Assembly (NCBI RefSeq): GCF_900119155.1
Contig: NZ_FPIR01000013.1
Span: 1-64,000 of the forward strand
Reading direction: 5' to 3'
Origin: Ruminococcus sp. YE71
Lineage (GTDB): Bacteria; Bacillota; Clostridia; Oscillospirales; Ruminococcaceae
DNA length: 64,000 nucleotides
Shown: positions 666-49,691 of the stretch, piece by piece
Layout: each line of letters starts with the position of its first letter
How positions within the stretch are numbered: the first letter of the stretch is position 1
Program-made: the position numbers and the translations under genes
Notes under the pieces: model-generated
What the model was told of the DNA's origin: nothing
Seen by the model: only the letters and a program-made list of their open reading frames with translations
Database searches by the model: none

Positions 666-2771
666 ATGGGCAAGAAAAATACAGACAGACAAATTATCGA
701 AGAGATCCCCGAAAATGAGTATCTTTGCTTTGATAACAGGGAACTTTCGTGGCTCAAATTCAATGAAAGAGTGCTTGAAGAGGCTGAGGACGAGCGGGTG
801 CCGCTTCTCGAACGGCTGAATTTCGTTTCAATATTCCAGAGCAACCTCGATGAATTCTTTATGGTCAGGGTCGGAGGTCTGCACGATACGGTCTCGGTCG
901 CACCCGATACGCGCGACAGCCGCTCGGGGATGAACGCCGCCGAACAGCTCACGGCTATCCTGCCCGAGGTCAAGCGGCTCTGCGACCGCCGCGACGCCGC
1001 ATACGTTAATATAATGCGAGGGGTGCGCGACAACGGCGTAAGGCTCGTGCGCTACACCGAGCTCACACATAAGGAACAGGAATTCGTCCGCCGCCACTTC
1101 GACGAGGATATACAGCCCCTGCTTTTCCCTGCGATGATCGGCAAGAAACAGCCGTTCCCGTTCCTCAAAAACAAGGAGGTCTACGGTTTTGCCGTGCTCG
1201 AAAACAAGAGCGGAAAGCGCAGGATAGCCATCGTGCCGTCCATCTCGCCGATGTTTCCGCCGACGCTGGAGCTTTCGGGCATCTCGGGCGGTTCGAGCGT
1301 TTCGGTCATCTGCATGGAGGACGTTATCCTTGAATTCTTTGAGGAGATATTCACGGGCTACAAGGTCATCGAAAAATCCCTTATCCGCATAATCCGCAAC
1401 GCCGACATCGACGAGGCGAGGGTCTACGACGAGGAACTCGACTACCGCGACCACATGAGCGAGGTCATAAAGATGCGCAAAAAGCTCGCTCCCGTGCGTC
1501 TTGACCTGTCGAATCAGCTGAGCGAGCCCGTGCTCGAAGAGCTGTGCAGCCTTCTCCGTCTCGAACGCCGATGGGTGTTCATTTCGGGAATGCCGCTCTC
1601 CACCGACTTTATCAAGCCCCTCGGCGAACTTCTCGACGGCAGACCTCAGCTTCGCTATCAGCCGAGAACCCCCCAGCGAAGTCCCGAACTGACCGATTCG
1701 CCTGTCATACCTCAGATACTGAAAAAGGACGTGCTGCTCCACTATCCTTATGAGAGCATGACACCGTTCCTGAATATGCTGCGTCAGGCTGCCGAGGACA
1801 AGAACGTCATCTCGATACAGATGACCCTCTACCGACTCGCAAACCACAGCAAGGTCATCGAAGCGCTCGTTGACGCCGCCGAGAACGGCAAGGAAGTCAA
1901 CGTGCTCGTCGAGCTCAAGGCGCGTTTCGACGAGGAGAACAATATCAACTGGTCGAAGCGTCTTGAACAGGCGGGATGCAGAGTGGTCTACGGTATCGAC
2001 GGACTGAAAGTCCATTCAAAGATATGTCTCATTACCCGCCGCAGCGGAAAGAGCACGCAGTACATAACCCAGATAGGCACGGGAAACTATAACGAATCCA
2101 CGGCGCGGTTCTACACCGACCTCTCGCTGATGACTGCCGACCGTCAGATAGGTCTTGAAACGGCGGAGGTTTTCAGGCACATCCTGATGGGTGAGACCGT
2201 TGCCGAGACAAAGCACCTTATGGTAGCGCCCAACTGCCTGCAAAACAAGGTCATCGACCTTATCGACCGTGAGGCGCAGAAGGCTCGCGAGGGCAAAGCC
2301 GCATACATCGGCGTGAAGCTCAACTCCATGACCGACAAGAGGATAATGGAGCACCTTATAGAAGCGTCCAAGGCGGGCGTAAAGATAGAGATGGTCATCC
2401 GCGGCATCTGCTGCCTGAAGCCTGGCATCGAGGGTCACACTGAGAACATCCGCATCGTGAGCATTGTCGGCAGACTGCTCGAACATTCGAGGATATACAT
2501 TTTCGGAGCCGATGACGACAGGGATATCTTCATCGCGTCCGCGGACTTCATGACGAGGAACACGCTCAAACGCGTCGAGGTCGCAGCGCCTGTCTATGCG
2601 CCCGAACTCAAAGCGCGTATAATGGGGATATTCGGCATCCTTATGAGCGATACCGCGTCCGCAAGGCTCATGCTCCCCGACGGCAGCTACAAGCGTCTGA
2701 GGGAAGGCGCGGACAATCTCTGCGCTCAGGAAAAGCTGTACGATATGGCTTACGAGAACGCGCTGAACTGA
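666..2771 (+). CDS. ppk1: Polyphosphate kinase 1
   Basis: Makes and reversibly uses inorganic polyphosphate from ATP at the cytoplasmic side of the membrane. The 701-residue protein has the family N-terminal domain (FDNRELSWLKFNERVLEEA), a long middle domain, and two phospholipase-D-like C-terminal domains. The autophosphorylated histidine lies in KVHSKICL (about His450), and the second conserved histidine in LEHSRIYIFG (about His607). In-frame ATGs exist at 600 and 648, but only 666 has a well-placed ribosome site (GGGAGA at 655-660). It stands alone, ending at a shared terminator against a convergent gene. No ppx partner is adjacent. Confidence 0.95.
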   Translation: MGKKNTDRQIIEEIPENEYLCFDNRELSWLKFNERVLEEAEDERVPLLERLNFVSIFQSNLDEFFMVRVGGLHDTVSVAPDTRDSRSGMNAAEQLTAILPEVKRLCDRRDAAYVNIMRGVRDNGVRLVRYTELTHKEQEFVRRHFDEDIQPLLFPAMIGKKQPFPFLKNKEVYGFAVLENKSGKRRIAIVPSISPMFPPTLELSGISGGSSVSVICMEDVILEFFEEIFTGYKVIEKSLIRIIRNADIDEARVYDEELDYRDHMSEVIKMRKKLAPVRLDLSNQLSEPVLEELCSLLRLERRWVFISGMPLSTDFIKPLGELLDGRPQLRYQPRTPQRSPELTDSPVIPQILKKDVLLHYPYESMTPFLNMLRQAAEDKNVISIQMTLYRLANHSKVIEALVDAAENGKEVNVLVELKARFDEENNINWSKRLEQAGCRVVYGIDGLKVHSKICLITRRSGKSTQYITQIGTGNYNESTARFYTDLSLMTADRQIGLETAEVFRHILMGETVAETKHLMVAPNCLQNKVIDLIDREAQKAREGKAAYIGVKLNSMTDKRIMEHLIEASKAGVKIEMVIRGICCLKPGIEGHTENIRIVSIVGRLLEHSRIYIFGADDDRDIFIASADFMTRNTLKRVEVAAPVYAPELKARIMGIFGILMSDTASARLMLPDGSYKRLREGADNLCAQEKLYDMAYENALN

Positions 2772-5541: not shown

Positions 5542-5553
5542 AAGATTTGAACA

Positions 5554-5723
5554 GATAGAGGTGCGGCAACGAACAGTAGCCCTGAGTAAGAACGTGCGTA
5601 TCCCGAACGTGCGGCTCTGCGGCAAAAGGCAATGCCGCCGAAGCTCAGCGCACGGGGAGCTGCTGCTGACCGCCTGCCGAACAGGTTTGCGGTTGTCATC
5701 ATGCTTTGTGATGGAGTGCTATC
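5554..5723 (+). promoter_or_regulatory. Lysine riboswitch (L box)
   Basis: The transcript contains the conserved L-box elements in order. P1 5' strand GATAG (5554-5558) runs into AGAGGTGCG, then AGTA, then CCGCCGAAGC in the junction, several paired arms, and GGAGTGCTATC closing P1 at 5719-5723. Size (170 nt), order and position ahead of asd-dapA match the known lysine aptamer. Lysine binding should favour the downstream terminator and shut off the diaminopimelate genes; that is inferred from the family. Confidence 0.93.
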
Positions 5724-5760
5724 GGCATTGATTGTCAACATTCTTATTATATTGCATGAT

Positions 5761-38988: not shown

Positions 38989-39864
38989 CTATTTTTCGGT
39001 AATGACTTTGTAGCAGGTCGGTCTGCGGTCGCGGAACAGACCCCATTCGAGCCTTGCTTTGTCAAGCTCCGCAAGGTCAAATTCGGAAGTCAGGACACAG
39101 TCGCCCTCGCGCTCGGCCTGTGCGATCACCTCACCGACGCCGTCAGTGATAAACGACGAACCGTAGAACCGAAGCGCCGAACTCTGTCCGCCGTTTTCCT
39201 CTGTCGGTTCAACAGTTTCGAGCCCGTAGCGGTTTGCGGCGATCACGGGGATCATGTTTGTGGCCGCGTGGCCTTTCATGCAGCGACGCCAGTGCGGCAT
39301 ACTGTCGGTTTCGAGGATAGGCTCGGCACCGATCGCGGTCGGGTAGAGCAGAAGCTCGGCACCCATAAGCGCCATCGCACGGGCGGTCTCGGGAAACCAC
39401 TGATCCCAGCAGATCCCGACGCCAATTCGGCCGAAACGAGTGTTCCAGACCTTGAAACCTGTGTCGCCGGGCGTGAAATAAAACTTTTCCTGATAGTAGT
39501 GGTCGTCGGGGATATGCGTTTTGCGGTAAACGCCGAGCACCGAGCCGTCAGCGTCGATCATGGCGACGGAGTTGAACAGGGTGTTGCCGCTCCGTTCGTA
39601 AAAGCTGACAGGAATAACGACATTCAGCTCGGCACAAACCTTTGAAAAGTGCAGAACAGCGTCATTCTCGGTGACAGACTTTGCGAATGCATAGTAGTCA
39701 TATCGCCGCTCCTGACAGAAATACTGACGCTCAAAAAGCTCGGGCAAGAGTATGACATTTGCGCCGTCAGCCGCAGCTTTACGCACAAGCTTCTCGGCGT
39801 GTGCGATGTTTTCACCCACATCTCGCGAGCAGTTCATCTGAACCGCTGCTGCTTTTATCTTCAT
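38989..39864 (-). CDS. aguB: N-carbamoylputrescine amidase
   Basis: Hydrolyses N-carbamoylputrescine to putrescine, CO2 and ammonia. The 291-residue nitrilase-fold protein has the full triad: Glu42 in LLPELFE, Lys115 in YRKTHIP and Cys152 in GICWDQWFPE. Its ATG overlaps the aguA stop (ATGA), with AGGAG inside aguA; longer in-frame starts upstream would run deep into aguA. Last gene of the polyamine operon and third step of the arginine-agmatine-putrescine route. Confidence 0.95.
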   Translation of the reverse strand: MKIKAAAVQMNCSRDVGENIAHAEKLVRKAAADGANVILLPELFERQYFCQERRYDYYAFAKSVTENDAVLHFSKVCAELNVVIPVSFYERSGNTLFNSVAMIDADGSVLGVYRKTHIPDDHYYQEKFYFTPGDTGFKVWNTRFGRIGVGICWDQWFPETARAMALMGAELLLYPTAIGAEPILETDSMPHWRRCMKGHAATNMIPVIAANRYGLETVEPTEENGGQSSALRFYGSSFITDGVGEVIAQAEREGDCVLTSEFDLAELDKARLEWGLFRDRRPTCYKVITEK

Positions 39865-40979
39865 TTCAGGTCGTCTCCTTTCGGGATCTGTTGAGTGATG
39901 CAGTGGATGTTTCCGCCGCCGACGATTATCTGCCGCGCCTGTATCGGAACGATTTTTCTGCTCCTGCACCATTCGGTCATGAGTCGCACTGCGCGTTCGT
40001 CGCTCTCAGCGTTTTCACCGCCGAACTGCGGCAGCAGAACTTTACCGTTAGTGAAGTAAAAGTTCACATAGCTTGCCGCGAGTCTTTCGCCGACTTCTCG
40101 GACATCTTCGCCTTCCTCGAACACATATCCGTCGAGTTCTTCCTGAGTGATGCAGACGGGATGATCAGGGATAGGCAGCTTGTGGATTGTGAATTTTCTG
40201 CCTTTAGCGTCGGTCTCTTTTTCAAGAACATCAAGGCACGCTTTCGACATTTTATGCTGAGGATCGTTCGCATCATCAGTCCATGCAAGAACGACCTCAG
40301 CAGGTCCGATGAACGCACAAACGTTGTCAACGTGCTCATTTGTCTCGTCGTTATAGATTCCTCTCGGAAGCCAGATGACTTTTTTGCCGCCCAGATGATC
40401 ACACAAAATACGTGCAATATCGTCTTTAGAAAGGTGCGGATTTCGTCCCTGACTCAAAAGGCAGCTCTCTGTAACAAGGATAGTACCTTCACCGTCGGAA
40501 TGTATCGAACCGCCTTCAAGCACGAAATTTTGAGCGTCGTAGTAGTGAACTGCGAGCTTCTCACAAATGCTTTTGGCAAGCTTGTTGTCATTATCCCAGT
40601 GGGCATAAAGCCCGTCAGATTCGCCGCCCCATGCGTTGAACTGCCAGTCTATCCCTCGGATCTCATGACCGTTTGTTACAAATGTCGGAGCGGTGTCTCT
40701 TGCCCAGGCATCGTCTGTCGGTATCTCTAACAGGGTGATATTCTGTACACCTGCAAGCATTTTCTCAGCAATATGCTTTGTGAACGAACTGACGACAACA
40801 TACACATTTTCGTCTTCAGCAATCTCACGTATTATCTGCGAAAAAACTTCCTGAGCGGGTTTCGCCTCGTCGATCCACGAACCTCTCCGCTCGGGGAAGA
40901 TCATGATGGTGCCATGGTGCGGCTCATACTCGGCAGGCATCCTGAAACCGTCCGCAGACGGCGTATTTACAAGCTTCAT
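39861..40979 (-). CDS. aguA: Agmatine deiminase
   Basis: Converts agmatine to N-carbamoylputrescine and ammonia. The 372-residue protein has the family start DGFRMPAEYEPHHGTIMIFP, WARDTAPTF, and the nucleophile cysteine in GGGNIHCITQQIP (about Cys360). It overlaps nspC by 4 bp (ATGA) and aguB by 4 bp, so the three are translated together. Confidence 0.96.
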   Translation of the reverse strand: MKLVNTPSADGFRMPAEYEPHHGTIMIFPERRGSWIDEAKPAQEVFSQIIREIAEDENVYVVVSSFTKHIAEKMLAGVQNITLLEIPTDDAWARDTAPTFVTNGHEIRGIDWQFNAWGGESDGLYAHWDNDNKLAKSICEKLAVHYYDAQNFVLEGGSIHSDGEGTILVTESCLLSQGRNPHLSKDDIARILCDHLGGKKVIWLPRGIYNDETNEHVDNVCAFIGPAEVVLAWTDDANDPQHKMSKACLDVLEKETDAKGRKFTIHKLPIPDHPVCITQEELDGYVFEEGEDVREVGERLAASYVNFYFTNGKVLLPQFGGENAESDERAVRLMTEWCRSRKIVPIQARQIIVGGGNIHCITQQIPKGDDLK

Positions 40980-42112
40980 GACAGCCTCCCCTTGAAATCT
41001 TCGTAGCCGAACCTCCGAACGAGTTCGTAGCTGCCGTCGGCGTGGAGAATCCCGATATCTGGCAGCGGCATCCCGTTGAAAGTGTTGTTTTTGACCATCG
41101 AATAGATCGCCATGTCCTCAAAACACAGCCTGTCGCCGACTTCGAGCGGCTGATCGAAGCTGTAATCGCCGATGATATCGCCTGCGAGGCAGGTTCGTGA
41201 AGACAGCCTATAACTGTACGCTTTTTCTCCCTCTTTTCCCGAAAGGAACAGTGGCGGACGATAAGGCATCTCAAGAACATCGGGCATATGACAGGCAGCC
41301 GATGCATCTAAAACTGCGATTTTGCGCCCGTTTTCGACGATATCCATCACTTCTGTCACCAGATAACCTGCGTTCAGAGCGACAGCTTCGCCCGGTTCGA
41401 GATAGACCTCAACGTTGTATCTATCCCTAAAATCGGACACAAGTTTCACTAGCAGATCACGGTCGTAATCGGCACGGGTGATATGATGCCCGCCGCCGAA
41501 ATTGACCCATTTCACCCTGCTAAGGTACTTCCCGAATTTCTCCTCGACTGCTTTGAGCGTCACTTCAAGTGCGTCGGAATTCTGCTCGCAAAGCGTGTGA
41601 AAATGCAGTCCGTCGAGACACGCTACCACCTCATCAGTGAGGTCGCACGCCCTGACTCCGAGCCGCGAGCCCGACGCACACGGGTCATATATCGGCTCTT
41701 CCTGCGTCGAACATTCGGGATTGACGCGCAATCCGATGCTTTTACCTGCACATCTGTCCTTAAATTTGTACAGCTGAGCAATTGAATTGAAAACGATATG
41801 GTCTGACAGACTCGCTACTTCCTCAAATTCGCTGTCTTTGTACGCAGGGCAGTAGGTGTGAACTTCACCCTTAAATTCTTCATGTCCGAGTTTTGCTTCA
41901 TACAGACCGCTCGCAGTGGTGCCGTCCATATATTCAGCGATCATCGGATAGACAGAAAACATAGAAAATGCTTTCTGAGCGAGCAGTATCTTACAGCCTG
42001 CCCGTTCTTTTACGTCCTTCAGTATGCGAAGATTTTTCAGAAGTTTCGCTTCGTCGAGAACATAGCAGGGTGTTTCAATAGTCCTGAAAATCGGACTGAT
42101 AACTTCTAACAT
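40976..42112 (-). CDS. nspC: Carboxyspermidine/carboxynorspermidine decarboxylase
   Basis: A PLP enzyme of the alanine-racemase fold that removes CO2 from carboxyspermidine. The 378-residue protein opens with ETPCYVLDEAKLLKNL and has the PLP lysine in LLAQKAFS (Lys47). A glycine-rich phosphate loop (NFGGGHHIT) and the late DASAACHMPDVLEMPYRP segment identify the NspC branch rather than LysA. It starts 1 bp after the dehydrogenase gene. Confidence 0.94.
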   Translation of the reverse strand: MLEVISPIFRTIETPCYVLDEAKLLKNLRILKDVKERAGCKILLAQKAFSMFSVYPMIAEYMDGTTASGLYEAKLGHEEFKGEVHTYCPAYKDSEFEEVASLSDHIVFNSIAQLYKFKDRCAGKSIGLRVNPECSTQEEPIYDPCASGSRLGVRACDLTDEVVACLDGLHFHTLCEQNSDALEVTLKAVEEKFGKYLSRVKWVNFGGGHHITRADYDRDLLVKLVSDFRDRYNVEVYLEPGEAVALNAGYLVTEVMDIVENGRKIAVLDASAACHMPDVLEMPYRPPLFLSGKEGEKAYSYRLSSRTCLAGDIIGDYSFDQPLEVGDRLCFEDMAIYSMVKNNTFNGMPLPDIGILHADGSYELVRRFGYEDFKGRLS

Positions 42113-42113
42113 A

Positions 42114-43367
<1,254 letters not shown>

Positions 43368-43399
43368 GTTTATGTCCTCCTTGAAAATGATATTTTAGT

Positions 43400-43706
43400 T
43401 TTTTAGTTTCTTGTCTTTCACCTGTCTGAATGAATCGGATCAGTTCCTCGACATCATCAAAACCGTCGTAATCTCCGAAGATACCCTCACGGTGATAGAC
43501 GATGCCGTTCTTTTCGTTTATTTCAAGACGGTCGGGAAGTTCTTCCTCGCCTATCTTTTTGCAAACAAAGTGAAGCAGTATGGTTTTATCTTCGACAGCA
43601 TACCCTTTCGGCATTCATTGGTGCAGCCGAAGCAGTGCGCGGCTTTCTTTTCGGCTGTGCATTTTCTGTTTTCGAACCATCCTTTGTCGGGACAGTCTTC
43701 CGAAGA
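43400..43706 (-). pseudogene. Broken cysteine-rich reading frame inside the polyamine operon
   Basis: Directly after the GNAT stop and in the same frame, 51 open codons (43706-43554) encode a cysteine-rich stretch with CTAEKKAAHCFGCTNECRKG and KPYCFTLFAKR, then TAG. The coding sense continues one base out of frame as GEEELPDRLEINEKNGIVYHREG and GDYDGFDDVEELIRFIQTG. A single-base loss at about 43552 explains the change. No start codon with a ribosome site precedes it. It looks like a decayed small zinc-binding protein or lost C-terminal domain of the GNAT; a sequencing error is not excluded. Confidence 0.6.
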
Positions 43707-44174: not shown

Positions 44175-45032
44175 TTAAGAGCGTTCCTCTTCTTCGAGCA
44201 GTTCCTCAACATATCTCGGCAGCATGAACGCGCCTGTGTGCAGGTTTGTCGTGTAGTACCAGGTCTTCAAGCCCCTCGCCTTCCAGCGCTCGGCGTCGAG
44301 GTCGTGCAGCGGGTGATACTTCTTGCTCGCGAAGCCGAACAGCCAGTAACCCGACGGGCAGGTCGGGATATGTGCCTGATACACGCGGCTGATCGGGAAA
44401 CTTCGGTACGCCTTGCGGTGCATGGCGCGGCAGGCATCCTCGTCCTCGTCGAAAAATGGCGAACCGTGCTGATAGACCATCACGCCGTCTTCTTTGAGTG
44501 CCTTGTAGCAGCTGCCGTAGAACTCCTTTGTGAACAGCCCCGCCGTGTGTCCGAACGGGTCGGTGGAGTCGTTGATGATGAGGTCGTACTCGCCCTCCTT
44601 GCCGCGCAGGAAACGCAGACCGTCGCGGTAGTAGACCTTGACGCGGGGGTCGTCGAGCCCCTTTGCGTTGTCAGGGAAGAACTCCTGACAGACCTTGACG
44701 AACAGTTCGTCGGGTTCAACAACGTCGATCTCCTCGATCTCCTCGTAGTAGCTGAGCTCTCTCGCCACGCCGCCGTCGCCGCCGCCGATGACCAGCACCT
44801 TCTTGACGTTCGGGTGTACCGCCATCGGAACGTGTACGATCATCTCGTCGTAGGTGAACTCGTCCTGCTCCGAGAAGATAACGCTGCCGTCCGACGTGAT
44901 GAACCTGCCGAACTCGGGCGACTCGAACACGTCGATCCTTCTGAAATCGCTGTCCCCCGAGAAGAGCTGACGCTCGACGCGGATAGACATTTTAACATTA
45001 GCCGTGTGCATTTCCGAAAACCAGAAATCCAA
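44175..45032 (-). CDS. speE: Spermidine synthase-family aminopropyltransferase
   Basis: Transfers an aminopropyl group from decarboxylated SAM to a polyamine. The 285-residue protein has the family start FWFSEMHTANVK, the cofactor loop GGGDGG (83-88) and the catalytic aspartate region IINDSTDPFG. A TTG at 45032 is the likely start: GGAGG lies eight bases before it, whereas a GTG at 45041 overlaps that site. No speD (SAM decarboxylase) is in the window, so its donor must come from elsewhere or its role may differ. Confidence 0.92.
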   Translation of the reverse strand: MDFWFSEMHTANVKMSIRVERQLFSGDSDFRRIDVFESPEFGRFITSDGSVIFSEQDEFTYDEMIVHVPMAVHPNVKKVLVIGGGDGGVARELSYYEEIEEIDVVEPDELFVKVCQEFFPDNAKGLDDPRVKVYYRDGLRFLRGKEGEYDLIINDSTDPFGHTAGLFTKEFYGSCYKALKEDGVMVYQHGSPFFDEDEDACRAMHRKAYRSFPISRVYQAHIPTCPSGYWLFGFASKKYHPLHDLDAERWKARGLKTWYYTTNLHTGAFMLPRYVEELLEEEERS

Positions 45033-45091
45033 ACCGCTCACCTCCGGTAGAAATGAATAGTGAATACAGAATAATGAATAATTAACAATAT

Positions 45092-45304
45092 TTAAACACC
45101 ATTATAGAATCTGATGATTATAAGTATAACAGCCAGCATCGGGATAAATACTATGTACCCGATGATCCTGAGCGCAACTAATATTTTACTGTTTTGGTCA
45201 ACCTTTTCACCCTTACGTCTGCGCTTCATTACGGTCATTATCAGTACATACAGCAGAACAACGATAAGTGCCGCCCACAGCATTACATTCCAAAAGCCTG
45301 CCAT
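45092..45304 (-). CDS. Small two-helix membrane protein in the polyamine operon
   Basis: A 70-residue protein: helix one at about residues 5-24, a basic loop (KRRRKGEKVD), helix two at about 41-64. AAAGGA precedes the ATG, which lies 7 bp after the decarboxylase stop. It has no recognisable family. A helper role in polyamine transport or enzyme anchoring is speculation. A longer in-frame version would overlap the decarboxylase gene and is unlikely. Confidence 0.65.
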   Translation of the reverse strand: MAGFWNVMLWAALIVVLLYVLIMTVMKRRRKGEKVDQNSKILVALRIIGYIVFIPMLAVILIIIRFYNGV

Positions 45305-45311
45305 GCCTGAT

Positions 45312-46763
45312 CTATCCTTTAAGTACGTTGAGTCTTTCGAGTGACCCGTCCTCAGGTCCCTGCATTGAGCACCCCTTTTCCTTAGCGAAAAGCGTGTACT
45401 CAATGATCTCCTCGGTTATCATCTCGCCCGGGGAGAGGATCGGTATTCCGGGCGGATAGCACATGACGAACTCGCCGCAGATGCGCCCCGCCGTCTCGCG
45501 GATCGGGACGAGCTCCTTGTCGGAATAGAACGCCTTCTGCGGTGTCGCTGCAACGATGGGCGTGATGTACTCGGCGTTGTGCAGCTTTGAGGTCGGCTTG
45601 TGATACAGGCGCTTGATGTCCTCCAGCGCGCCCACAAGACGTTCAATATCCTGAATGCGGTCGCCGATCGAAATGTACGCGAGGATGTTGCCTATGTCGC
45701 CGAACTCGATCTGTATATCGTACTCGTCACGCAGCAGGTCGTATACTTCTATACCCGTCAGACCGATGTCGCGGGTGTAGACTGACAGCTTTGTGACGTC
45801 GTAATCGTAGATGCTCCTGCCGTTGACAAGATCTTTACCGTAGGCGTAATAACCGCCGATGGAATTTATTTCGCTGCGTGCGTATTCAGCCATCTGACGA
45901 ACCTTTTCAAAGCTCTCGCGGCCTCTCAGAGCGAGGTTTCGTCGCGAAATGTCAAGGCTCGACAGCAGCAGATAGCTTGCGCTCGTTGTCTGAGTGAGGT
46001 TGATGATCTGCTCGACATAGCGCGTGTTCATGCTCTCGCCGAGCAGCAGCAGGGAACTCTGCGTCAGGCTGCCCCCCGATTTATGCATCGAGACAGCCGC
46101 CATATCCGCGCCTGCTTCCATTGCCGAAACGGGGAGCTCCTCATGGAAGTACAGATGCGTTCCGTGAGCTTCGTCCACAAGACAAAGCATACCATGCTCG
46201 TGAGCCATTTTCACGATGGAACGCAGGTCGGAACAGATGCCGTAGTAAGTCGGGTTGTTGACAAAGACTGCTGTGGCTTCGGGGTGTTCTTCCATCGCCT
46301 TTTTCAGCATATCCAGATCCATTCCGAGGGCTATGCCGATATGCGCGTCAACGTCGGGATTGACGTATACGGGCTCGGCGCCGCACAGCACCAGCGCATT
46401 GATGACGCTGCGGTGAACGTTTCTCGGAAGGATGATCTTGTCCCCCGCCTTGCACGCCGAAAGCACCATGCTCTGCACCGAAGAAGTGGTGCCGCCTACC
46501 ATAAAATAGGCGTGTGCCGCCCCAAAGGCTTCGGCAGCCAGCGCTTCCGCGTCGTAGATGACCGAAACGGGATGGCAAAGGTTGTCCAGCGGCTTCATCG
46601 AGTTGACGTCGAGCCCGACGCACTTTTCGCCCAGAAGCTGCACCAGCTCGGGATTTCCGCGTCCGCGCTTGTGTCCCGGAACATCGAAGGGAACTACCCT
46701 CTGCCGTCTGAACCTTTCGAGCGCTTCATAGACAGGGGCTCTTTTCTGCTTTTCTATGTCCAT
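45312..46763 (-). CDS. speA: Arginine/lysine/ornithine decarboxylase (fold type I), probably arginine decarboxylase
   Basis: A 483-residue PLP decarboxylase of the short Firmicutes type. It shows VPGHKRGRG, GGTTSSVQ, LVDEAHGTHLYFHEELP and the PLP lysine in VSMHKSGGSLTQSS (Lys228). Because aguA and aguB follow in the same operon, arginine to agmatine is the probable reaction; lysine or ornithine cannot be excluded by sequence. ATG 46763 follows GTGAGG; a GTG at 46796 has no site. First gene of the operon, behind a long leader with a terminator. Confidence 0.9.
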   Translation of the reverse strand: MDIEKQKRAPVYEALERFRRQRVVPFDVPGHKRGRGNPELVQLLGEKCVGLDVNSMKPLDNLCHPVSVIYDAEALAAEAFGAAHAYFMVGGTTSSVQSMVLSACKAGDKIILPRNVHRSVINALVLCGAEPVYVNPDVDAHIGIALGMDLDMLKKAMEEHPEATAVFVNNPTYYGICSDLRSIVKMAHEHGMLCLVDEAHGTHLYFHEELPVSAMEAGADMAAVSMHKSGGSLTQSSLLLLGESMNTRYVEQIINLTQTTSASYLLLSSLDISRRNLALRGRESFEKVRQMAEYARSEINSIGGYYAYGKDLVNGRSIYDYDVTKLSVYTRDIGLTGIEVYDLLRDEYDIQIEFGDIGNILAYISIGDRIQDIERLVGALEDIKRLYHKPTSKLHNAEYITPIVAATPQKAFYSDKELVPIRETAGRICGEFVMCYPPGIPILSPGEMITEEIIEYTLFAKEKGCSMQGPEDGSLERLNVLKG

Positions 46764-46830
46764 ATCTTTTACCTCACGATAAAGTATTTTTCCCACAATG
46801 ACGTTAACAGAGCAATTTCAAAATCAAAAA

Positions 46831-46857
46831 CAGGCGATACGCATAACGCATCACCTG
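46831..46857 (-). terminator. Leader terminator upstream of the polyamine operon
   Basis: On the minus strand CAGGTGATGCG pairs with CGTATCGCCTG (two G-T wobbles), 11 bp, followed by TTTTTGATTTTG. It lies about 240 nt into the transcript and about 70 nt before the speA start, so it must be bypassed for expression. Confidence 0.82.
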
Positions 46858-47096
46858 CATGAAAATGTCTTTGCTTTGCACGTTCGCCCGTAACCGCTGG
46901 GAGTAATGCCGATTTCTTATTGACCGTTTCACAAGTGATGTTGATTATAAAGTTATCATCTTATAAAAAGTTAGGGCTGTTCACCCAATCAATAATGCAG
47001 CAGAAAATGCTGCGGTCGGCTTTCGACCCGCCTGTCCGTCCGGGCTTGGCTTTTCGATCATATTGAAAGAAAAGCGGTCGTGACTTTTTCAAGTCC
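46831..47096 (-). promoter_or_regulatory. Candidate riboregulator (terminator/antiterminator leader) of the polyamine operon
   Basis: The minus-strand leader carries several hairpins (GACTT/AAGTC at 47082-47095; GCGGTCG/CGACCCGC at 47012-47031; GCAGCA/TGCTGC at 46997-47013). Further down, CATCACTTG (46940-46932) can pair with CAGGTGATG, the 5' arm of the terminator (46857-46849), over nine base pairs with one wobble. This mutually exclusive pairing is the hallmark of an attenuation switch. The ligand is unknown, and I do not recognise a described aptamer. Confidence 0.6.
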
Positions 47097-47102
47097 TTAT
47101 GT

Positions 47103-47131
47103 ATTATAACATATTTTTTGTCAGTTGTCAA
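47103..47131 (-). promoter_or_regulatory. Promoter of the polyamine operon
   Basis: On the minus strand TTGACA (47126-47131), 17 bp, TATAAT (47103-47108). It gives a leader of about 333 nt before speA. Confidence 0.88.
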
Positions 47132-47184
47132 CGGTTTGTCAGAGAAATTTAACGTGTCGGTTGTAAAAAAATTCTGTATATCTA

Positions 47185-47213
47185 TTGACAAGATAAGAGA
47201 AAAGTAGTATAAT
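47185..47213 (+). promoter_or_regulatory. Promoter of secDF
   Basis: TTGACA at 47185-47190, 17 bp, TATAAT at 47208-47213, divergent from the polyamine operon promoter. Confidence 0.88.
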
Positions 47214-47294
47214 ATTATGGTAAATCGGCTGCATGAGGGCTTGCTATGCCGTTTTGACCCTCGTTCAGTCAGAAAGTTGATAGGAGGAAATACA

Positions 47295-49691
47295 GTGCGA
47301 CGTGCAAAAAAGCCTGTATTCTTCGTAGTCTTCATACTTATATTCGCTTTTGCGTACCTAACTATCATGGGTGTGCATTACCTGTACGGAGACACGCAGT
47401 TTACAGTCATAAAGAGCGTAAATGAGATAAGGTGGGGTATCGATATTCGGGGCGGTGTAAACGCCACCTTCGGTCCTGCTGATGATTACAAAGCTTCCGA
47501 GGACGATATGAACTCGGCTAAGGCGGTAATCGACCAGAGACTTCTGAACCTCAACATAACCGACAGTGAGGTCTATGTTGACTACAACAAAAACAAGGTC
47601 ATCGTGTCCTTCCCCTGGCAGGCAGGCGAGTCTGACTTTGATCCCGAACAGGCAGTTAGCGAGCTCGGCGAGACGGCTATGCTCAAGTTCGTTAAGGGTT
47701 CGGATCAGAACGGCGAGGAGATCATGACCGGTCTTCAGGTCGCAAAGGCAGAAGCAGCGGGCTATGAGGGCGACAACGGTGAGACAAACTGGGTCGTTAG
47801 CCTTACTCTCGACGAGGACGGCAAAAAGGCGTTCGCTGATGCTACTACCGAACTTGCGGGCAGCGGTGACATCTCCATCTGGATGGATGAGACCATGATC
47901 TCCGATGCTAACGTCAATGAGCCTATCACAGGCGGCAAGGCACAGATCTCGGGCAACTTCACCTACGAACAGGCAAAATCCCTCGCTGACAAGATCAACG
48001 CAGGTTCTCTGCCTTTCAAGCTGGTGGCTACCAGCACCAACATCATCAGCCCGACCCTTGGTGAGGGCGCACTTTCCGCAATGCTGATGGCCGGCCTTAT
48101 CGCATTCGGCTTTGTTGCAATTTATCTGATGATCTTCTACAGACTGCCCGGCTTTGTTGCAGTTATCGCACTTGTCGGTCAGGTCATTGGTTCGCTGGCG
48201 TGCATCTCGGGCTTCTTCAAGGACTTCGACAGCTTCACGCTCACCATTCCGGGTATCGCGGGTATCATCCTCTCGATCGGTATGGGTGTTGACGCGAACA
48301 TCATCGTTGCAGAGCGTATCAAGGAAGAGCTCAGACTCGGCAAGACCCTTAACGGCGCTATCGAGCAGGGTTACAAGAGAGCATGGGCAGCCGTATTCGA
48401 CTCCAACATAACTGTAATTTTCGTTGCTGTCATCCTGATGGGTTCCTTCGGTTCCACCGACAGCGTATTCGGAACACTTCTCAAGCCTTTCTTCATGGCG
48501 TTCGGCGCTCAGATGGCAGGCACCATTTACTCGCTCGGCTATACTCTTTTGGTCGGCATCATCACAAACTTCTTCTTCGGAATCTTCTGTTCGAGACTTA
48601 TGCTCGAATCCCTGTCTAAGTTCCAGTGCTTCAGAAAGCGCAAGTTCTTCGGCGTCAAGGAAGATGAAAAGAGCGTTCCTACTCTCGAGAAGAAGCGTTA
48701 CAATGTTACAGGCAAGGGCAAGGTCTTCTACGTTGTTTCCTGCTGCCTCATAGTTCTGTTCGCAGCACTCACCATCGCAGGTATCCCGAAGATCGCTATC
48801 GAGTTCAAGGGCGGTACACTTATCAGCTATACATTCGAGGGCACTATCGACAATTCTGCTGTTGAGACCCTCGTTAAGGACACCATCGGAGAAGACTGCA
48901 CCGTTACTCAGGGTAAGGACATCACCAGCGGCAAGGACACTGTTCAGCTGAGCTTCTCCTCCAAGGGCGGTATCGACGATTCCAAGCAGGAACAGATCAA
49001 GACTGCTATGACTTCAACTTTTGCGGACAACAACATCGAGACTCTTGAGTCCACCAACGTTTCCGCGACCAACGGTAAGACATTCTTCGCTAAGTGCCTC
49101 GTTGCGCTTCTGCTGGCTGTAGTTGTTATGATTATCTACATCGGCATCAGATTCCGCAACATCGGCGGTATCTCGGCAGGTGCGTTCTCTGTTGTAGCGC
49201 TCCTCCACGATATGATAATGGTTTACGGCTCCTTCGTGATCTTCGGATTCGACATCAGCTCCAACTTCATCGCAGTACTGCTCACCATCATGGGCTACTC
49301 GATCAACTCGACCATCATCATCTACGACCGTATCCGTGAGAATAAGCGTCTGTACGGCAAGAAGCTCGACATTCAGGAGCTTACGAACCTTTCCATCACA
49401 CAGACCATCACGAGAAATATCCACACCAACGTGACCACCGTTTCGGTTATGATAATCGTTTCGGTAGTATGCTCGCTCAGAGGCGTTTCCTCGATCATGA
49501 GCTTCTCGCTCCCGATGATCGTTGGTATGCTCTCAGGTGTTTACACCTCGATGTGCCTTGCTCCTACCCTCTGGGTGGCTTGGCAGAAGCACGTTGAGAA
49601 GAAGCACCCCGACAAGTCCTTCAAGTCTCAGGGCAAGAAGAAAAAGGCGGGTTACAAAGACACAGGTTACGGTGTCGGCGCTCAGGTATAA
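47295..49691 (+). CDS. secDF: Protein translocase subunit SecDF (fused)
   Basis: Uses the proton gradient to help pull exported proteins through SecYEG. The 798-residue protein joins SecD (about 1-455: helix 1, the D1 motif GIDIRGGVN, five helices with GMGVDANIIVAERIKEE) and SecF (about 470-798: EFKGGTLISYTFEG, then helices with GYSINSTIIIYDRIREN). GTG at 47295, seven bases after AGGAGG, is the start; an upstream ATG in frame lacks a site. Stands alone between its promoter and terminator. Confidence 0.95.
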   Translation: MRRAKKPVFFVVFILIFAFAYLTIMGVHYLYGDTQFTVIKSVNEIRWGIDIRGGVNATFGPADDYKASEDDMNSAKAVIDQRLLNLNITDSEVYVDYNKNKVIVSFPWQAGESDFDPEQAVSELGETAMLKFVKGSDQNGEEIMTGLQVAKAEAAGYEGDNGETNWVVSLTLDEDGKKAFADATTELAGSGDISIWMDETMISDANVNEPITGGKAQISGNFTYEQAKSLADKINAGSLPFKLVATSTNIISPTLGEGALSAMLMAGLIAFGFVAIYLMIFYRLPGFVAVIALVGQVIGSLACISGFFKDFDSFTLTIPGIAGIILSIGMGVDANIIVAERIKEELRLGKTLNGAIEQGYKRAWAAVFDSNITVIFVAVILMGSFGSTDSVFGTLLKPFFMAFGAQMAGTIYSLGYTLLVGIITNFFFGIFCSRLMLESLSKFQCFRKRKFFGVKEDEKSVPTLEKKRYNVTGKGKVFYVVSCCLIVLFAALTIAGIPKIAIEFKGGTLISYTFEGTIDNSAVETLVKDTIGEDCTVTQGKDITSGKDTVQLSFSSKGGIDDSKQEQIKTAMTSTFADNNIETLESTNVSATNGKTFFAKCLVALLLAVVVMIIYIGIRFRNIGGISAGAFSVVALLHDMIMVYGSFVIFGFDISSNFIAVLLTIMGYSINSTIIIYDRIRENKRLYGKKLDIQELTNLSITQTITRNIHTNVTTVSVMIIVSVVCSLRGVSSIMSFSLPMIVGMLSGVYTSMCLAPTLWVAWQKHVEKKHPDKSFKSQGKKKKAGYKDTGYGVGAQV

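Follow-up and report, generated by a model that had tools for sequence, protein, structure and literature searches.

The leader of the speA operon of Ruminococcus sp. YE71 is probably a cis-acting transcriptional OFF riboswitch belonging to a large new class, with a polyamine, most likely spermidine, as its ligand. It lies on the minus strand of the window, the whole stretch of 64,000 nucleotides (nt) that was analysed. That the leader is a conserved cis-acting transcription attenuator is close to certain; that it would sense a small molecule directly is highly probable, that this molecule would be a polyamine is likely, and for spermidine itself the chances look slightly better than even. Should it prove to be a riboswitch, the class would be new but the kind familiar. 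The conserved structure of the RNA, the co-variation of its antiterminator strand with the terminator arm, its position in front of polyamine genes and the near-equal competing folds in the window were computed directly from the sequences.

Promoter, leader, terminator and speA all share one orientation (Table 1). A preliminary description of this DNA had proposed a strong promoter, a leader of roughly 330 nt and an 11-bp terminator with a U tract before speA. The promoter matches the consensus at 12 of 12 positions, the leader extends over about 333 nt, and the terminator and its U tract are in place, although the hairpin counts 13 pairs, G-U pairs included, and not 11. Transcription likely starts near 47096, judging from the -10 box, and a Shine-Dalgarno-like TGAGGT (46776-46771, minus strand) lies upstream of the speA ATG (46763-46761). 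Positions 46000-48000 hold five promoter-like sites against 1.6 expected and five terminator-like sites against 2.2 expected. The terminator hairpin has a predicted energy of -19.4 kcal/mol, and its 5' arm includes 46857-46849. A second perfect 12/12 promoter (47185-47213, plus strand) stands back to back with that of the leader and points towards a secDF gene.

Relatives were compared through the Rfam family RF02440, which the 5' part of the leader matches. A pattern scan of genome contigs for the RF02440 core gave at least 118 stretches. Among 147 loci in total the core motif is present in 142 (it is absent in L009, L011, L015, L028 and L029), a set that probably contains one genome or more in duplicate (L021, L067). 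The structure set comprises 110 of these 142 loci, which needed a GACC-like start and the 3' strand by pattern, so the conservation of those two parts is partly due to selection; the 32 loci dropped are short stretches, off-target matches and pattern misses, the last including the real, divergent Lactococcus loci L118 and L133. At less than 90% identity 82 loci remain, and 59 of them (less than 86% identity, 135-185 nt) make up alignment A1. A covariance model of the core, R1, has 162 positions.

The antiterminator carries much of the argument. As the preliminary description had claimed, CATCACTTG (46940-46932) and CAGGTGATG (46857-46849) can form nine pairs, one of them G-U, and the match is more than chance because both strands co-vary in relatives. 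A terminator was called where a hairpin of -8 kcal/mol or lower preceded a T tract within 330 nt downstream, which was the case in 100 of the 110 loci. The terminator 5' arm was then paired with the strand around ACUUG, and native partners were compared with mismatched ones. For 72 loci (the 75 non-redundant ones minus odd terminator calls) the native mean duplex was -14.94 against -11.83 for mismatched partners (z -10.6), and none of 10,000 permutations was as low. The result was the same for all 100 loci (z -10.6), similar for the 75 non-redundant loci (z -10.4) and weaker at less than 80% identity (z -8.4, 42 loci), while eight control segments of the leader gave z between -1.4 and 1.1. In only 3 of the 72 rows does no other arm pair better than the native one (the median is 13 better arms), as would be expected if the arms have the CUUG complement in common but vary in strength. 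The proposed comparison among relatives thus found both covariation and a co-varying antiterminator strand, and the idea of an attenuator with exclusive pairings in front of a polyamine operon is supported.

Upstream of this expression platform lies a conserved structured domain, 164 nt in the window and about 260 nt in the main subtype. RNAalifold on A1 gave helices P1, P2, P3, P5, P6 and P8 with 33 pairs, 10 of them changed on both sides, and 96.9% of cells pair under this structure. Both-sided changes were found in 158 cells compared with 45.4 +/- 9.0 in shuffled alignments, and the covariation score was 0.237 compared with 0.103, with 0 of 500 shuffles as high, a comparison that favours the structure because it was derived from A1 itself. 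Versions of the structure slid along the alignment left 29-45% of cells paired. P2 and the outermost P1 pair account for most of the covariation, and P3 and P6 contribute some. Stretches invariant in all 59 rows are CGGACAG (P3 loop and strand), CGGG (P3/P1 strand) and CTTGT (P8 strand). Both strands of a possible pseudoknot from the P3 loop are invariant in A1 as well, and therefore give no covariation test. P1 is missing from the free fold of the window by energy folding.

Further helices were compared at 77 loci with fixed windows. The arms of P4 co-vary (z -13.9), those of P7b weakly so (z -2.6). A local 3' hairpin convincing by eye, P9 (GAGUAGUAAAAGUAA with UUGCUAUAUAGACUC), was rejected, as its arms do not co-vary (z 0.9); its 5' strand is conserved, and the partner of its 3' strand is the 5' flank (P0). 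In the main subtype, P0 joins the 42 nt before P1 to the tail after P5, with a native duplex of -24.21 against -17.72 for mismatched partners (z -15.0, 77 loci), halves at z -11.9 (outer) and z -11.6 (inner), and controls at z -1.1 and z 0.0 (the second with 75 loci). The window (L001) and L012, L013 and L138 were excluded from this test, their 5' partner being seemingly absent. Pairing of the P0 region is weak in the window and in L013 and reaches -17.4 and -18.2 in L012 and L138, which may have some form of P0; the window subtype seems from its sequence to lack this 5' closing helix.

The 3' strand of P8 contains the CUUG of the antiterminator, and the two folds are mutually exclusive because they have 46935-46932 in common. 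With only the 5' arm of the terminator present, the forced antiterminator fold of the window has -69.1 kcal/mol, 1.7 above the best fold (-70.8, with P8 and without P1); P1, P3, P5 and P8 forced together give -67.9 kcal/mol in folding without pseudoknots. Once the whole terminator is present, the antiterminator fold has -77.2, the terminator with forced aptamer helices -85.1 and the best fold, P8 with the terminator, -87.3 kcal/mol. A small molecule would bind directly and favour the terminator. In the proposed mechanism the conserved domain, P1 to P8, would fold around a polyamine, most likely spermidine. With the ligand present, P5 and P8 would hold the CUUG part of CAUCACUUG, the terminator would form and RNA polymerase would stop before speA. 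With the ligand absent, CAUCACUUG would instead pair with the terminator's 5' arm, leaving the operon open to transcription.

A switch of this anatomy may be worked by other means. Attenuation by a leader peptide is hardly credible. Open reading frames of at least eight codons preceded by AGGA, GGAG or GAGG do occur in 9 of the 82 non-redundant leaders, and those of L071, L083 and L137 share the start MQIF; yet 73 of the 82 leaders have no such frame, the shared start stems from a conserved DNA word, after which the frames diverge, and no conserved short frame was found. A polyamine-responsive RNA-binding regulator that stabilises one of the two folds is improbable, though less so. Anatomy alone is equally compatible with a riboswitch and a protein, and the regulation seen in pneumococci, described below, suits both. 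Most leader-binding proteins use short sites, while the core is large and some of its invariant stretches, among them the P3 loop and GCCG, lie outside the modelled pairs. Nor does a shared regulator stand ahead of the genes that follow the RNA, as far as the further neighbours, identified only in part, could be read. Between the RNA and potA in L106 lies a gene for a PII-like protein (1557-1952, minus strand).

The genes that follow the RNA bear on the identity of the ligand. When polyamine proteins were compared by tblastn with up to 3,000 nt downstream of the 142 core matches, a polyamine gene was found on the same strand in 129, the median distance from the core being 316 nt. The first such gene is speA in 43 loci, speD in 37, potA in 27 and that of a carboxy(nor)spermidine synthase/dehydrogenase (CASDH) in 22. 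The preliminary description had looked to speA-speE-CASDH-nspC operons of related Oscillospiraceae for comparison, a scope that proved too narrow, since members in Paenibacillus, Lactococcus and other genera precede speA, speD, CASDH-nspC or potA. Among representatives scanned with NCBIfam, SpeD and agmatinase scored above cut-off, PotA above its subfamily cut-off in one of two, and PotB, PotC and PotD below cut-off. Of the 13 loci without a polyamine gene, seven have at most 257 nt of downstream sequence (L030, L031, L035, L064, L070, L082, L129), five without the 3' strand were judged off-target (L033, L036, L060, L091 and L117, from Nocardia, Kiloniellaceae, Rhodococcus, Phycicoccus and Thermomicrobiales), and L034 precedes a lipoprotein resembling C39 peptidases, by its likeness to L207 and L208.

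Sensing of another pathway compound (putrescine, agmatine, carboxyspermidine, decarboxylated S-adenosylmethionine (SAM) or arginine) is unlikely but carries appreciable weight, and it overlaps with our explanation if that compound is putrescine, which remains the strongest candidate among them. The 80 of 129 contexts in which speA or speD comes first would on their own permit agmatine or ligands derived from SAM. Neither SAM nor arginine is a direct substrate of CASDH-nspC units, and the potA units serve the import of putrescine or spermidine; these come first in 22 and 27 of the 129 contexts. Arginine, agmatine and SAM are thereby disfavoured, so that of the ligands proposed in the preliminary description (a polyamine, agmatine, arginine or a SAM-related compound) the polyamine is the one that the gene set favours. 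Spermidine is preferred as the shared end product, since it would be common to all these genes, whether imported or made by either route.

Data from Streptococcus pneumoniae agree with repression by an intracellular polyamine when uptake is impaired. As given in the available parts of the papers, loss of potABCD raised speA 16.9-fold and speE 14.4-fold by quantitative reverse transcription PCR (qRT-PCR) (PMC8540371), and in RNA-seq five genes among SPD0809-SPD0815 rose 1.4-1.9-fold under the uptake inhibitor AMXT 1501; three of these were tested by qRT-PCR and were up 2.4-3.3-fold (PMC10887117).

In the Rfam scan RF02440 was the sole family reaching its gathering score, in six of nine leaders (the window and eight relatives); the L208 leader fell just under that score, and no match at E 0.1 was found in the divergent leaders L201 and L212. 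Outside the RF02440 match, no Rfam family was hit in the window leader at E up to 1 except isrK (0.21), on the opposite strand, and the leader has no match to a T-box, lysine or SAM family or to a described aptamer. The preliminary description was thus right that no T-box and no described aptamer is present, but the RNA was not entirely unrecognised. Rfam types RF02440 as a small RNA (sRNA) gene, and the matched part sits within the promoter-to-terminator leader upstream of speA. The pneumococcal RNA of this family is described, in the accessible text of the sources, as the 82-nt sRNA F59 between SP0915 and SP0916 (PMC3395615), as srn235/SN20 with a lung pathogenesis profile in a review, there without target or mechanism (PMC4387999), and as M7, a 327-nt region that is another listing of the same RNA (PMC12323649). 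Likeness to it consists in the same sequence family over 47080-47016; the model has 54 positions, less than the conserved RNA here, which also ends in a switchable terminator, as predicted. Among the open-licence literature matches listed, with subscription papers and preprints outside the scope, none gave a cis function for an RF02440-type RNA.

This annotation raises the prospect of a small RNA acting in trans, released by termination at the leader, a very improbable reading of the whole in spite of the Rfam type and the pneumococcal profile. Co-variation ties the RNA to a terminator in cis, its place before the genes of one pathway is maintained, and a terminated leader would itself pass for an sRNA in RNA-seq data. 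The RNA may also have a second, trans-acting role alongside the one in cis.

Other known systems share parts of this design. T-box and lysine-type leaders follow the same terminator/antiterminator logic, but the window leader matches neither, and a T-box was rejected on that ground. An ordinary lysine riboswitch is found elsewhere in the window (5548-5729, plus strand, 76.1 bits). The spermidine riboswitch described by Salvail 2023 (PMC10853860), in the part of that paper available, is a rare SAM-I variant with 13 examples and likewise an OFF switch on a terminator, before genes of polyamine metabolism, among them ldcC, speE, speB and speD; it differs in its SAM-I four-stem fold, and a SAM-I-type architecture was rejected for the window leader, where the SAM families have no match. 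From descriptions in the accessible portions of the sources, an attenuator of unassigned mechanism also precedes potABCD in Haemophilus somnus and Pasteurella multocida (the ABC-leader of Naville and Gautheret 2010, PMC2965389), which are Gammaproteobacteria, and the odc1 and potE motifs, from alphaproteobacteria and Veillonella, are structured RNAs preceding polyamine genes (PMC8632094); these were set beside the window RNA by description only.

R1 matched 19 of 398 genomes of the phylum, each over positions 1-162 and including all 17 that RF02440 matched, and 14 of 268 sampled genera. Of 61 relatives, R1 matched 16 and RF02440 15. In the family, 84 of 297 genomes and 41 of 126 genera were matched, a genome tally that includes five weak matches of 28.8-36 bits, among them G528 (28.8 bits; its locus L211 was unused). 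An nspC match above 300 bits was present in 35 of the 61 relatives, 15 of which have the RNA; of the 26 others only one has it (G047), where it precedes potA. Within the genus of the window the RNA occurs in 3 of 13 genomes, the window included; ten of the other twelve (G001, G002, G004-G011), eight of them with nspC, gave no R1 match, and some of these genomes are incomplete. Named carriers include Paenibacillus, Bacillus, Neobacillus, Kurthia, Lactococcus, Acidaminococcus, Phascolarctobacterium, Faecalibacterium and Blautia, as well as metagenome-assembled genomes labelled Synergistaceae and Spirochaetes; together they span several bacterial classes.

The window belongs to a minority subtype in which the middle P3 pair is C-G and not G-C (4 of 59 A1 rows). 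Its G-type P3 3' strand was found in twelve rows, nine distinct after removal of same-genome copies, and in seven of these nine P5 is followed by UCGGC or CCGGC, which could pair with GCCGA. L201-L205 and L212 form a third group, whose P1 and P3 consist of different pairs (in L201-L205 the P1 strands are GGCC). The RNAs of this group stand before speA-speE, and in five of the six stretches read CASDH follows next. The variants L034, L207 and L208 precede C39-like cysteine peptidases rather than polyamine genes, possibly reflecting a changed ligand or another regulon. Some odd members were noted by eye: L128 and L135, before speD, keep the 5' domain and the GAGUAGUAAAAGUA tail and appear to lack P6 and P8, and L133 (Lactococcus taiwanensis), before potA, keeps P5-like ends and the tail and appears to lack the ACUUGUGAA strand. 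In L140 an insertion of more than 100 nt separates P7 from the 3' strand of P8.

Several observations weigh against a polyamine riboswitch of the kind proposed. The permutation tests ignore shared ancestry, a worry that the identity cut and the control segments only lessen, and P5 and P8 are nearly invariant, with zero both-sided changes in A1. For the unfinished transcript the energy of the antiterminator fold exceeds that of the best fold by a median of 7.65 kcal/mol over 72 loci (quartiles 4.65 and 10.6, range 0-21.3), compared with 1.7 in the window; since the gap is wide in most relatives, the order of folding during transcription must matter. The RNA is missing from 20 of the 35 relatives with nspC. 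Both Lactococcus loci, L118 and L133, failed the 3'-strand pattern, and L133 seems to be without the antiterminator strand; streptococci may thus have a different form, and the pneumococcal data lend correspondingly less support. That support is further qualified in the available text of its sources, where RNA-seq of the same potABCD mutant is without the rise seen by qRT-PCR (PMC8540371), and where difluoromethylornithine (DFMO) lowered two pathway genes 1.5-fold, which does not obviously fit (PMC10887117).

Downstream of the leader, speA is followed by speE, an open reading frame with weak acetyltransferase matches below cut-off, CASDH, nspC and aguA. The speA product is 74.2% identical to the protein encoded after the RNA in Faecalibacterium prausnitzii (L108) and is probably an arginine decarboxylase, a substrate suggested by relatives and by pneumococcal SP_0916, a demonstrated arginine decarboxylase according to the consulted parts of PMC7531197 and PMC7990898. 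Two small open reading frames of the operon (45092-45403 and 43249-43614, both minus strand) match no NCBIfam family at E 1e-5.

Table 1. Coordinates in the window of the speA leader, its predicted RNA elements and the genes of the operon.
Feature	Position	Strand	Basis or remark
Promoter TTGACA-17-TATAAT	47103..47131	-	Predicted; 12/12 consensus matches
speA leader	46764..47096	-	About 333 nt; sequence and translation; ends before ATG
Conserved core domain (putative aptamer)	46917..47080	-	R1 positions 1-162; 123.8 bits, E 5.5e-27 for one genome; window row itself part of the R1 alignment
RF02440 (SpF59_sRNA / ldcC RNA) match	47016..47080	-	55.8 bits, gathering score 37.2; 65 nt, 5' part of conserved domain
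P1 (47080-47076 with 47028-47024)	47024..47080	-	Encloses P2 and P3; covariation in A1
P2 (47075-47070 with 47054-47049)	inside P1	-	Covariation in A1
P3 (47045-47043 with 47032-47030)	inside P1	-	Covariation in A1
Possible pseudoknot, P3-loop CGG (47038-47036) with CCG (47019-47017)	47017..47038	-	Putative
P4 hairpin	46997..47013	-	Sequence; arms co-vary in main-subtype relatives
P5 (46995-46989 with 46923-46917)	46917..46995	-	Encloses P6 and P8; 98.1% of cells paired in A1
P6 (46986-46984 with 46976-46974)	inside P5	-	One pair with both-sided changes
P8 (UUUAUAAG 46967-46960 with CUUGUGAA 46935-46928)	46928..46967	-	98.9% of cells paired in A1
Antiterminator strand CATCACTTG	46932..46940	-	Co-varies with terminator arm in relatives
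UCGGC element	46908..46912	-	Sequence; subtype feature, pairable with GCCGA 47020-47016
Intrinsic terminator hairpin	46830..46858	-	13 pairs including G-U; U tract from 46830
speA, pyridoxal phosphate-dependent basic amino acid decarboxylase	45312..46763	-	NCBIfam decarboxylase models below cut-offs only
speE	44175..45041	-	PRK00811 and TIGR00417 above cut-off
CASDH	42114..43367	-	NF043000 389 bits, below cut-off 800
nspC	40976..42112	-	TIGR01047 above cut-off
aguA, agmatine deiminase	39861..40979	-	TIGR03380 above cut-off

Few small molecules in cells are more abundant than polyamines. The sole validated polyamine riboswitch in the literature searched, as far as the accessible text of that literature extends, is the rare SAM-I variant. 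A bolder formulation, to which we give somewhat less than an even chance, is that the RNA described here would be the main polyamine riboswitch of the Bacillota, about 160-260 nt long, which would bind spermidine and turn off synthesis (speA, speD, CASDH-nspC) as well as uptake (potABCD), with at least two further subtypes and a C39-peptidase variant that may have changed its ligand; the class would then have escaped notice because no more than a fragment of it had been catalogued, under the heading of a streptococcal sRNA. The findings give reason to extend and re-annotate RF02440 in Rfam and offer a possible mechanism for the polyamine-responsive speA operon of the pneumococcus. Given the broad spread of the RNA (41 of 126 sampled genera of the family and 14 of 268 of the phylum) and its near-uniform polyamine context, whether a polyamine riboswitch is widespread can be put directly to the test.
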